Assembly: GCA_021789095.1 (NCBI GenBank)
Contig: JAJYJX010000087.1
Location: 1 to 10,186 of the forward strand
Reading direction: 5' to 3'
DNA: 10,186 nucleotides
Origin: a bacterium
Lineage (GTDB): Bacteria; JAMCPX01
The position numbers and the translations under genes are program-made. Of this stretch, positions 6,058 to 10,048 are shown piece after piece. How positions within the stretch are numbered: the stretch's first letter is position 1; each line of letters begins with the position of its first letter. The notes below the pieces were generated by a model. The model saw only the letters and a list, made by a program, of their open reading frames with translations. It made no database searches and was not told the origin of the DNA.

Positions 6058-6426
6058 CTAATCTCTGCTTTTCTTGTATTCCTCGATTATATCGAGTATC
6101 TCTTGTACATGGAATGGCTTGCTTATACAACCATCGCAACCGATAAGGATGAAGCGTTCCCTGTCACTTTTAAGTGGAGCTGATGTAAGAGCTATTACAG
6201 GAATTTTACCAGTCCTGGCGTCGGACTTTATAAGCTTCGTAAGGGTAATACCGTCCATGCCTGGCAGGTTTATATCCATAAATATCAGATCCGGGACATG
6301 CTCATTGATTATTCTCATAACAGAAAGGCCATTGCTTGCCTCTATTACAGTATAGTCTTGTAACTCCAGTAAATCCCTTATGAGCCTTGCAGTCTCAGGA
6401 TCATCCTCAACAATGAGTATTCTCAT
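6058..6426 (-). CDS. Single-domain response regulator (CheY-like receiver)
   Basis: A stand-alone phosphoacceptor receiver of 122 residues with no output domain. Numbered from the chosen start MRILIVEDD, it has the acidic pair D8/D9, the phosphorylation aspartate D51 in FMDINLPGMDG, the switch T81 in ALTSAP, and the conserved lysine K103 in SKPF. Such proteins relay phosphate from a histidine kinase to another protein; the kinase is not in the window. I chose the ATG at 6426 because MRILIVEDD is the usual receiver start and TAGGTG lies just ahead. A GTG at 6432 would add two residues (MY). It lies 98 bp upstream of the exchanger gene on the same strand and could be read through into it, but no shared function is proven. 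A promoter and palindromic site lie about 100 bp upstream. Confidence 0.93.
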   Translation of the reverse strand: MRILIVEDDPETARLIRDLLELQDYTVIEASNGLSVMRIINEHVPDLIFMDINLPGMDGITLTKLIKSDARTGKIPVIALTSAPLKSDRERFILIGCDGCISKPFHVQEILDIIEEYKKSRD

Positions 6427-6524
6427 GTACACCTATTTAAATTTAAGCTTTATAAAGTTTATTAAAACAAAGTGTACAGGTTTCAACACTATAACTCATT
6501 TTATTTATCTATTGTCTTAAATTG

Positions 6525-6596: not shown

Positions 6597-6742
6597 GAAA
6601 CCGTTTGTACTGGTGGTGTGGAATATTCAACATAGACGAACCAACCCTTTGTTCCCCTCCACCATTTCAATTTCATAATTAAAACTGTGACGTCATAATA
6701 ACAATAAATATGCAACAATAATCACAATAATATCTTCTAAGT

Positions 6743-6760: not shown

Positions 6761-6767
6761 TTATTTT

Positions 6768-6783
6768 TGGCACAAAACATGCT
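6768..6783 (+). promoter_or_regulatory. Sigma-54 (RpoN) type -24/-12 promoter of the small-protein gene
   Basis: TGGCAC-N5-ATGCT matches the sigma-54 consensus TGGCAC-N5-TTGCW at all but one defined position. The invariant GG (6769-6770) and GC (6781-6782) are 12 bp apart, as required. The predicted start near 6794 leaves a short leader carrying GGAGG at 6800-6804 before the ATG at 6813. An overlapping sigma-70 reading (TTGGCA, 16-bp spacer, TATAAT at 6789-6794) also exists, but its start near 6801 would cut into the ribosome binding site, so the sigma-54 reading fits better. Confidence 0.6.
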
Positions 6784-6812
6784 TATTTTATAATGTTATG
6801 GAGGCAAGAGTT

Positions 6813-6950
6813 ATGTGGATTTTAAAGTTTATTTTTATAGTATCAGGAGTGGTCTATGAACTGCTGCATTATGTTGCAACTGGCTTATACAATACTATAA
6901 GCAAGAAGATTTCAGACCGTCTGTACAAGCCCAATAAGAGTCAAGCATAA
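6813..6950 (+). CDS. Small membrane-type protein, 45 residues, unknown function
   Basis: A short ORF from ATG at 6813 to TAA at 6948-6950. The protein starts MWILKFIFIVSGVVYELL, a hydrophobic segment of about 14-18 residues. A likely amphipathic stretch (HYVATGLYNTI) and a basic tail (SKKISDRLYKPNKSQA) follow. The start is well supported: GGAGG at 6800-6804 is 8 bases away, and a sigma-54-like promoter lies just upstream. An in-frame ATG at 6798 would overlap the ribosome binding site and is less likely. I recognise no family. It stands alone between divergent and convergent neighbours. The topology suggests a single-pass or membrane-surface peptide, such as a small regulator of a membrane protein; that is inference. 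The evidence that it is a gene is the promoter, ribosome binding site and membrane-like sequence together. Confidence 0.6.
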   Translation: MWILKFIFIVSGVVYELLHYVATGLYNTISKKISDRLYKPNKSQA

Positions 6951-7029: not shown

Positions 7030-8463
7030 TTATCTTGTCATCCATGACCTGCTTTTCAACGTTGTAAATGCATACGGGAATATCCACTGCAAAGTAAAAA
7101 TGGAAAAATACGCATAAAGTATTCCATAAATAAAATCAGAATTCTTTTCTGAACGGATATAATAAGCCGTATACACAGCCGCTATAAGTCCTACCAGCGA
7201 AAGATACCTGAATATATTTGCAGGATACAGCACAAGGTTCACAAATAATAGTATAATTGCATAGTACTGGAACGGATAACGCATATTGACAATCACAAAA
7301 TTGACGAAAGGAAGCAGCCTGTGCTTTTCCCTGTACTTCTTAAGGATGAATGTAGACAGAATAATGGATTCCCTTATATTGCTTCTTTCCCACCTCAAAT
7401 ACATCCTTGACAATTGATTATATTTGGTAGGCACGAGTGTATGTACAACTGCATTGTTTTGATATGTTGTATAAAATCCACTGCGGAGTACAAGATTGGT
7501 AAGTGCCCTGTCCTCGCCGTACGTACACACCTGGCCAAGAAATATCTCATTGAGCCATTGGTCCATAACCTGTTTTACAATATCAGCCCTATAAGCCGAA
7601 AATGCCCCTGGACAGCATAGAACAGCACCGTAAGTGGCCTGGCAGGCTCGTGTAAAATCAAATGACAGGATAAAGCTAACACCAAGCATCTTTGGTATTA
7701 TACCTTCATTTTTGTTTAATACTTTTACGTTTCCTGCAACCGCGCCGATCTTCTTATTGGATACAAACGGAGCAACAATACTATGTATGGCTCCTTTCTC
7801 TATTATACTGTCCGAATCTATTGTTACAAATATCTCACCCTTTGCCTGTTTGAACCCATGGTACAGTGCCTGCCGCTTTCCCATATTGTGAGGCAGTTTT
7901 ATCAATCTGACATTATCCGGATACTTTGCTTCAGCCTTTTGCATGTACAAAAATGTATCGTCCTTGGAACCGTCATCAACACATATAACCTCTAACTTAT
8001 CATGGGGGTAACCTGCCTCTATTGCAGCCTTTATGGCTTTTTCCACCAGTGCACCTTCATTATAGGCGGGTATAATAACACTAATTTCAGGCAGAGGATT
8101 GTCCTTTAAAGCATTATACGGCTTGTAAATGAACCAGAGGAATGTCCGGAAAAGCAGGTATAAAAGCGTGATAGCGGAGTAGCTGATTGCAGAGTATGTA
8201 AAGAAACTGAAGAATTTGCCCTGTGCTATGGTAATTTCCCATAACTTCACAAATGAACCGTAGTAAATGGACGCAGCTACAAACCCTGCTACAGCAGCAA
8301 GCGTGCTTGCTTTCAGCAGTAGATCCACGACGCCAGTATCATGCAATTTACTTATACCGGCAAGCGATTGTCCCGTGTCCTTGCTGTTTACAAAAAAAGA
8401 ATATCTTCCCCCGACCCTGTCATGCATTTTAATGTTTTCTTTCTTTACAGACCAGTTGGACAT
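7030..8463 (-). CDS. Processive family 2 glycosyltransferase, hyaluronan synthase/NodC/chitin synthase-like
   Basis: Inner-membrane enzyme that probably polymerises and exports a polysaccharide from UDP-sugars. Two hydrophobic segments at about 48-68 and 86-111 precede a GT-A catalytic domain: ISVIIPAYNEG at 127-137, VDDGSKDDT with D163/D164, the metal-binding DSDS at 216-219, CCPGAFSAYR at 283-292 as in NodC and hyaluronan synthases, and GED with D318 as the likely catalytic base. The acceptor motif QxxRW is present only as MYLRW at 354-358, with Met in place of Gln. Three or four hydrophobic segments follow between about 385 and 466. The 477 residues fit single-subunit synthases. The ATG at 8463 is the first possible start; no clear Shine-Dalgarno is seen. 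No sugar-nucleotide or export genes are adjacent, so the polymer cannot be predicted. Confidence 0.88.
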   Translation of the reverse strand: MSNWSVKKENIKMHDRVGGRYSFFVNSKDTGQSLAGISKLHDTGVVDLLLKASTLAAVAGFVAASIYYGSFVKLWEITIAQGKFFSFFTYSAISYSAITLLYLLFRTFLWFIYKPYNALKDNPLPEISVIIPAYNEGALVEKAIKAAIEAGYPHDKLEVICVDDGSKDDTFLYMQKAEAKYPDNVRLIKLPHNMGKRQALYHGFKQAKGEIFVTIDSDSIIEKGAIHSIVAPFVSNKKIGAVAGNVKVLNKNEGIIPKMLGVSFILSFDFTRACQATYGAVLCCPGAFSAYRADIVKQVMDQWLNEIFLGQVCTYGEDRALTNLVLRSGFYTTYQNNAVVHTLVPTKYNQLSRMYLRWERSNIRESIILSTFILKKYREKHRLLPFVNFVIVNMRYPFQYYAIILLFVNLVLYPANIFRYLSLVGLIAAVYTAYYIRSEKNSDFIYGILYAYFSIFTLQWIFPYAFTTLKSRSWMTR

Positions 8464-9103: not shown

Positions 9104-10048
9104 ATGAAGTCAATAAATAACAGGAAAGCAACCCCGTTCATAATATTATTTTCCCTATTCTCTATCACACTTATTAGCAATTGCAGCGGTGGTCCAGGGT
9201 ATGTACCGGCTGGCGGCAATAACAATATGTGCTCACAGAATTTATCACCTGATGTAAAGAAATTGCTCGGCTGTCCAACAGCGCCAGCAGCGTCGACCCA
9301 GCAGTTACCGCCATCTATTATAATAGCAAACGGCGGCACGTATGGTGAATGCCCCTCAGTACCAACCACAGGACCGATTAGTGTGTATATAACTGCTACA
9401 GACTTCCAGACACTGGGTCCTGTTTCTGGCGCAGCAGTATCATTTTTTACAAGCACATCAAACACCGTTGGCACATCATCGCCTGATATAACCGCTACAG
9501 CAGGTCAAAACGGAATAACCACAGCAACACTTCCGACGGGCATACCGTTCGTAGCAAAGGGTTCATCAACAGGTTATAAAGATACATACCAATTCGGTGA
9601 TTTACTCGCCGGGAATGATGCAGGTCATTTCCTGCCTGTGTTATTAATATCCGATTTCACTGTTGGTCTCCTGTCTAGCTTTGCAAGTGTAAAACCGGAC
9701 TGGACCAACGGAGCCGTAGCTGGTGAAGTAGTGGACTGCAGCGGCAATGCCATACAAAATGCCATTGTATCCCTTGTAGATGCAAAAACAGGTATAACAG
9801 TAACGACCAGCCTTGTATACTTCACGTATTCGTCCACTTTTAAGGCTGATATACCTGATTCTTCTTTAACTTCAACATCAGACAATGGAATATTCCTATC
9901 TATCAATACTCCACCGGGTGATTATTACTTGGTGGCACAGGGTGTACTGCCCGGCGGGAATGCCATCGTAGTGCTCGGAGAAAGTTATGTAGAATCTGTC
10001 GCGAACTCGGTAAGTATAGCGAATATTCTGCCTCCAGTCACAAAGTAG
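9104..10048 (+). CDS. Putative lipoprotein with two Ig-like/carboxypeptidase-regulatory-like beta domains
   Basis: An exported 314-residue protein of unknown function. The start MKSINNRKAT at 9104 is chosen because AAGGAGG lies 5 bases upstream; a TTG in the same frame at 9053 overlaps the -35 box and is rejected. A basic N-terminus and hydrophobic segment (11-24) lead to LISNC with C27, a lipobox-like site with unusual Asn before the Cys, then a Gly/Pro/Asn-rich linker. Domain 1 (about 90-180) shows GAAVSFFTSTSN and GITTATLPTG, as in Ig-like or invasin-type repeats. Domain 2 (about 203-312) has GAVAGEVVDCSGNAIQNAIV, DNGIFLSI and PPGDYYLVAQG, the pattern of carboxypeptidase regulatory-like domains. 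Extra cysteines at 43, 57, 83 and 211 could form disulfides or anchor sites. It is probably on the outer membrane or cell surface. It has its own promoter and terminator, so it is a single-gene unit. Confidence 0.8.
   Translation: MKSINNRKATPFIILFSLFSITLISNCSGGPGYVPAGGNNNMCSQNLSPDVKKLLGCPTAPAASTQQLPPSIIIANGGTYGECPSVPTTGPISVYITATDFQTLGPVSGAAVSFFTSTSNTVGTSSPDITATAGQNGITTATLPTGIPFVAKGSSTGYKDTYQFGDLLAGNDAGHFLPVLLISDFTVGLLSSFASVKPDWTNGAVAGEVVDCSGNAIQNAIVSLVDAKTGITVTTSLVYFTYSSTFKADIPDSSLTSTSDNGIFLSINTPPGDYYLVAQGVLPGGNAIVVLGESYVESVANSVSIANILPPVTK

Follow-up and report, generated by a model that had tools for sequence, protein, structure and literature searches.

LpxC carries out the committed step of lipid A synthesis and is a drug target. 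It is largely an open question how bacteria other than enterobacteria adjust lipid A synthesis to demand. Among small membrane proteins, Ecr influences lipid A modification by way of PhoP/Q, and transcription of the psp genes depends on sigma-54. The only target of the Desulfovibrio vulgaris response regulator DVU2934 is lpxC, and the operon that encodes this regulator also includes a kinase and an HD-GYP protein (PMC3333781). A sigma-54 promoter is also predicted upstream of lpxC in Leptospira (PMC12655853). Because of these two cases, dedicated control of lpxC has precedent. In our literature search, we found no small membrane protein joined to dedicated lpxC control.

We analyzed a stretch of bacterial DNA of 10,186 nucleotides (hereafter the window; contig JAJYJX010000087.1 of assembly GCA_021789095.1) that encodes a predicted membrane peptide of 45 residues. 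The likeness to D. vulgaris, at the level of published description, is that lpxC in this group has a dedicated sigma-54 promoter and that a kinase/HD-GYP operon is found near the peptide gene; the reported targets of DVU2934 include no small membrane peptide. The likeness to Leptospira, a distant phylum, lies in the same predicted sigma-54 control at lpxC, and the available part of that report mentions no peptide (PMC12655853). PspG/PspD and YohP-type proteins are also small inner-membrane proteins, but they show no sequence match to the peptide, and their activator site and co-regulated gene differ. The Ecr family protein (NF033861) is likewise a small membrane protein and about as long as the peptide, but the latter falls below the family cut-off (12.8 against 33 bits; E = 0.074) and is not a member. 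The peptide constitutes a testable candidate for the control of lipid A synthesis.

Identification of a conserved small-protein gene

The features of the locus are given below in window coordinates; copy counts refer to the eight sequences described further on.

6058 to 6432, reverse strand: divergent single-receiver response regulator of 124 residues
6686 to 6703, forward strand: operator-like site U1, TGTGACGTCATAATAACA, conserved in 8/8 copies
6709 to 6726, reverse strand: operator-like site U2, TGTGATTATTGTTGCATA, with its ATCACA half in all 8 copies (reading ATCACG in one)
6768 to 6783, forward strand: sigma-54 -24/-12 element, TGGCACAAAACATGCT, kept in 8/8 copies
6794, forward strand: predicted transcription start, placed by promoter geometry 12 nt downstream of the -12 GC
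6800 to 6804, forward strand: Shine-Dalgarno sequence GGAGG, 8 nt before the ATG in 8/8 copies
6813 to 6950, forward strand: gene for the putative small membrane protein of 45 residues, MWILKFIFIVSGVVYELLHYVATGLYNTISKKISDRLYKPNKSQA, from the open reading frame, orthologs, selection and AlphaFold
7030 to 8463, reverse strand: convergent family 2 glycosyltransferase (GT2), a conserved neighbor that one peptide-bearing genome has lost

The reading frame of the peptide runs from the ATG at 6813 to the stop codon at 6948-6950 (45 codons). The list of open reading frames gave this frame as 50 residues from an in-frame upstream ATG at 6798. That codon coincides in part with the GGAGG, and two relatives carry AAG or ACG in its place; we therefore place the start at 6813, which yields a length of 45 residues. 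The GGAGG, the ATG eight bases on and the 45-codon frame were all found where the initial annotation had placed them.

The peptide was searched in nine genomes of the phylum, all from one family and several of them fragmented. It was found in seven (its own genome and six of the eight others), with one additional paralog in genome G003. The alignment of these eight sequences contains 17 invariant columns, and identity to the peptide of the window ranges from 53 to 67%. Across the eight copies, differences at codon positions 1, 2 and 3 amounted to 235, 172 and 501, respectively, although these counts are not independent, and dN/dS was ~0.02-0.23 in the pairs where dS was computable, dS being saturated in many others. 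This pattern indicates that the peptide evolves under strong purifying selection. Loss of the frame in relatives would have refuted the initial annotation; the frame was instead recovered, with a synonymous bias, in six other genomes and one paralog, and the sigma-54 box, the Shine-Dalgarno sequence and its distance to the ATG are all invariant in the relatives. As far as comparison of sequences can tell, a real, selected gene that family databases have overlooked is a well-supported reading of this frame.

The two genomes without the peptide were inspected. In G008 its place falls at a contig end, since the neighboring glycosyltransferase gene continues up to base 6615 of a contig only 6617 bases long. 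G004 lacks both the peptide and the neighboring gene; this genome is 87% complete and split into ~410 contigs, and the absence probably reflects an assembly gap. A scan of 84,980 species genomes recovered relatives of the peptide in only five records, all of them MAGs. No convincing homolog was found outside the phylum by a profile search of 386 genomes, and no relative was present in the viral contigs searched. Two weak matches outside the phylum (G167 and G089) were rejected as spurious, as one has no peptide-like open reading frame and the other lies inside a 685-residue FtsK-like frame. The isolate codes suggest a mine-drainage setting for the host group.

The second copy of G003, on contig C34 (L022 10001, reverse strand), is diverged, comes with a sigma-54 box and a pair of operator sites of its own, and is divergent from TadE/TadG-like pilus genes. 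GT2 is likewise present twice in this genome, the second copy being on contig C8.

Predicted structure and family assignment

AlphaFold predicts a single helix over residues 2-37, with a pLDDT of ~90 over the first 20 residues. The Kyte-Doolittle maximum over 19 residues is 1.3-1.8, which is hydrophobic but not extreme, and K5, E16 and H19 are conserved. Following the positive-inside rule, the basic C-terminal tail suggests that the C-terminus would be cytoplasmic. Searches of Pfam, NCBIfam, PHROGs and PDB sequences returned no credible match, in agreement with the initial annotation, which had recognized no known family, and a fold search of the PDB with the peptide likewise gave nothing credible. 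The peptide does not fit a Flp or type IV pilin: the segment G12-V-x-Y-E16 sets the glutamate at +4 where the prepilin motif wants it at +5 after the cleavage Gly, and the Pfam search with the peptide gave no pilin match. The invariant E16-x-x-H19 (window positions 6858-6869) sits in the hydrophobic helix, where a metal or haem ligand is conceivable.

A predicted sigma-54 promoter upstream of the peptide gene

Upstream of the gene, TGGCAC (6768-6773) and TGCT (6780-6783) are separated by six nucleotides, with the GG at 6769/6770 and the GC at 6781/6782. This confirms the TGGCAC-N5-ATGCT element with exact GG/GC spacing, and the start at about 6794, that had been proposed for this locus. TGGCAC-N6-TGCW has this sole exact match within the window. 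All eight copies retain the broader pattern TGGCAY-N5-NTGCW, at a distance of 41-54 nt upstream of the ATG. When we resampled each copy's own upstream 120 bp (first-order Markov model; 20,000 sequences per copy), the box appeared in 0.05-0.28% of the sequences, against eight of eight real copies. The GGAGG begins at +3 to +16 from the predicted start, never before it, and its distance to the ATG is always 8 nt while the predicted leader varies from 15 to 28 nt. RpoN was found in eight of the nine genomes and nine full bacterial enhancer-binding proteins (EBPs) in the window's own genome, where the sigma-54 pattern matched 32 sites against four for the reversed control. The intergenic sigma-54-like sites of this genome include a type IV pilin promoter. 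These sequence patterns indicate that the peptide gene has its own sigma-54 promoter, which would be used in vivo.

A sigma-70-like sequence absent from the initial annotation, TTGGCA-N16-TATAAT (6767-6794), overlaps the sigma-54 box, and transcription might instead proceed from it, the sigma-54 match being incidental. Its 11/12 matches in the window speak for this possibility. Yet it is present in the window only: the -10 hexamer is not conserved in relatives whereas the sigma-54 box is kept in 8/8 copies, and the start would fall at ~6801, inside the GGAGG. We therefore consider sigma-70 transcription highly unlikely.

The leader also bears on whether the peptide could be the hydrophobic toxin in a type I toxin-antitoxin system, a class that it resembles by its short length, hydrophobicity and basic tail. 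A leader of 15-28 nt leaves no room for the long structured leader usual in such systems. No antisense promoter was better than 9/12 matches and no Rfam match was obtained. The conserved activator-dependent promoter, shared with an essential biosynthetic gene (see below), also argues against a toxin, which we regard as very improbable.

Genomic neighborhood

The window also encodes a multihaem cytochrome, Fmt, an H+-pyrophosphatase, a Na/Ca exchanger and FeoA, in addition to the receiver-only response regulator and the family 2 glycosyltransferase. The multihaem c-type cytochrome (2-1492) is cut by the start of the window and matches Cytochrome_C7 and MtrC/MtrF-like domains. In five relatives, the place of the 124-residue receiver is occupied by an operon of a histidine kinase and a REC-REC-HD-GYP protein divergent from the peptide (domains were tested in two relatives, and the three others were judged by similarity and length). 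The receiver is probably a remnant of this operon.

The convergent GT2 adjoins the main peptide locus in six of seven genomes, which raises the possibility that the peptide is an accessory subunit of this membrane glycosyltransferase, as a small polysaccharide-synthase partner. However, the whole block is syntenic, so this linkage is weak evidence. Moreover, G002 has neither the kinase/HD-GYP operon nor a GT2 match at E = 1e-20, only a 3' flank resembling the GT2 end, and yet its peptide is kept, with a dN of 0.07 against a dS of ~1.8-1.9 to its nearest relative. Neither the operon nor the glycosyltransferase is therefore needed for the peptide, and a role as glycosyltransferase partner appears improbable. 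In that genome, the flank in question (L017 ~9700-9790, and L003) resembles the end of a GT2 gene, which looks eroded beside the kept peptide.

Operator-like sites shared with lpxC

Two operator-like sites precede the promoter. The center of U1 lies ~97-100 bp before the predicted start and the site resembles the lpxC operator TGTGATGTTATTATCACA. U1 and U2 are ~21 bp apart from center to center in most copies, and the pair spans about -70 to -107 from the start. The half-sites TGTGAY and RTCACA are conserved upstream of the peptide in 8/8 copies.

A search of the nine genomes for TGTGAY/RTCACA together with the sigma-54 box returned 19 places, 17 of which are peptide or lpxC promoters: eight at the peptide and nine at lpxC (one per genome). 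The remaining two were one site inside lpxC and one lpxC site read in reverse. The reversed-pattern control gave five. The lpxC promoter has a single palindrome, TGTGAT-N6-ATCACA, whose first base lies 68-70 bp ahead of the TGG. Half-site spacing differs between the peptide and lpxC promoters, which counts against common control. Measured from the TGG, the peptide sites are centered at about -71 and -50 and the lpxC palindrome at about -61; the peptide sites are thus placed ~10.5 bp on either side of the position of the palindrome, that is, one helical turn each way. None of the 10 other intergenic sigma-54-like promoters of the window's genome carries the half-site pair. A search with the 18-bp site motif alone was no better than its control, and the motif becomes informative only in combination with the sigma-54 box.

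The link to lpxC is partly post hoc. The first search, with the long spacer of the peptide, hit one lpxC promoter, after which a shorter spacer was allowed; an 18-mer search hit lpxC sites in further genomes. The presence of the lpxC site in all nine genomes is the strongest answer to this concern. Where both genes are on one contig (G002, G005 and G007), lpxC lies 4-5 kb from the peptide. No EBP gene adjoins the peptide or lpxC, and none of the EBP loci examined carries the operator. Co-regulation of the peptide with lpxC appears well supported by this shared architecture, and the two genes are probably turned on together by a common, rare sigma-54 switch. Conservation of promoter and operator can in this way link an orphan small protein to a pathway where sequence families give no placement.

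Proposed function of the peptide

The initial annotation had suggested a regulator of a membrane complex; this was a guess, which the shared operator search narrowed to a gene co-regulated with lpxC. We lean modestly toward the peptide being a small protein of the inner membrane that is produced alongside LpxC under a single sigma-54 activator and probably tunes lipid A or envelope synthesis. One candidate EBP would bind the TGTGAY/RTCACA operators upstream of the lpxC and peptide promoters only and, with RpoN, would switch on both genes. The product would be anchored in the inner membrane by a single helix (residues ~2-23), the basic cytoplasmic tail forming an amphipathic continuation of it, and would most likely assist or tune the synthesis of lipid A/LPS or of the envelope at times of raised LpxC output. 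The one functional lead to this presumed biochemical role is co-regulation with lpxC, which is no proof of joint function; the molecular target is the least certain element of the proposal.

The same promoter could also serve a general sigma-54 membrane-stress protein, similar to PspG or YohP, that protects or adjusts the inner membrane and has only its activator in common with lpxC. The size of the peptide, its single helix, its basic tail and a stress-type promoter fit this description, and stress-induced small membrane proteins of <50 residues are a known class (PMC12719787). The regulon, however, comprises practically two genes, one of them lpxC, which argues for a specific role in envelope synthesis, and we hold the general stress protein as a tentative possibility. 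A narrower version of the lpxC-linked role is somewhat more doubtful still: the peptide could be a dedicated membrane-bound regulator of LpxC, acting on its stability, membrane docking or activity. The two-gene sigma-54 regulon formed with lpxC would then replace or complement lipid A control of the enterobacterial FtsH/LapB type.

Other sigma-54-like promoters

The lpxC promoters of the nine genomes (L123, L124-L130 and L050) all present a conserved sigma-54 box. The predicted lpxC start lies 3-6 nt before the ATG (ATG at +4 to +7; in L125, LpxC starts at +6), and the mRNA would therefore be near-leaderless, with no room for a Shine-Dalgarno sequence. Finally, on contig C9 of the window's own genome, two sigma-54-like promoters ~2.2 kb apart (L051 and L052) share an upstream inverted repeat around GAATATTGTTTA. 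They precede a small exported protein and an outer-membrane-efflux-like protein and represent a candidate separate EBP regulon.
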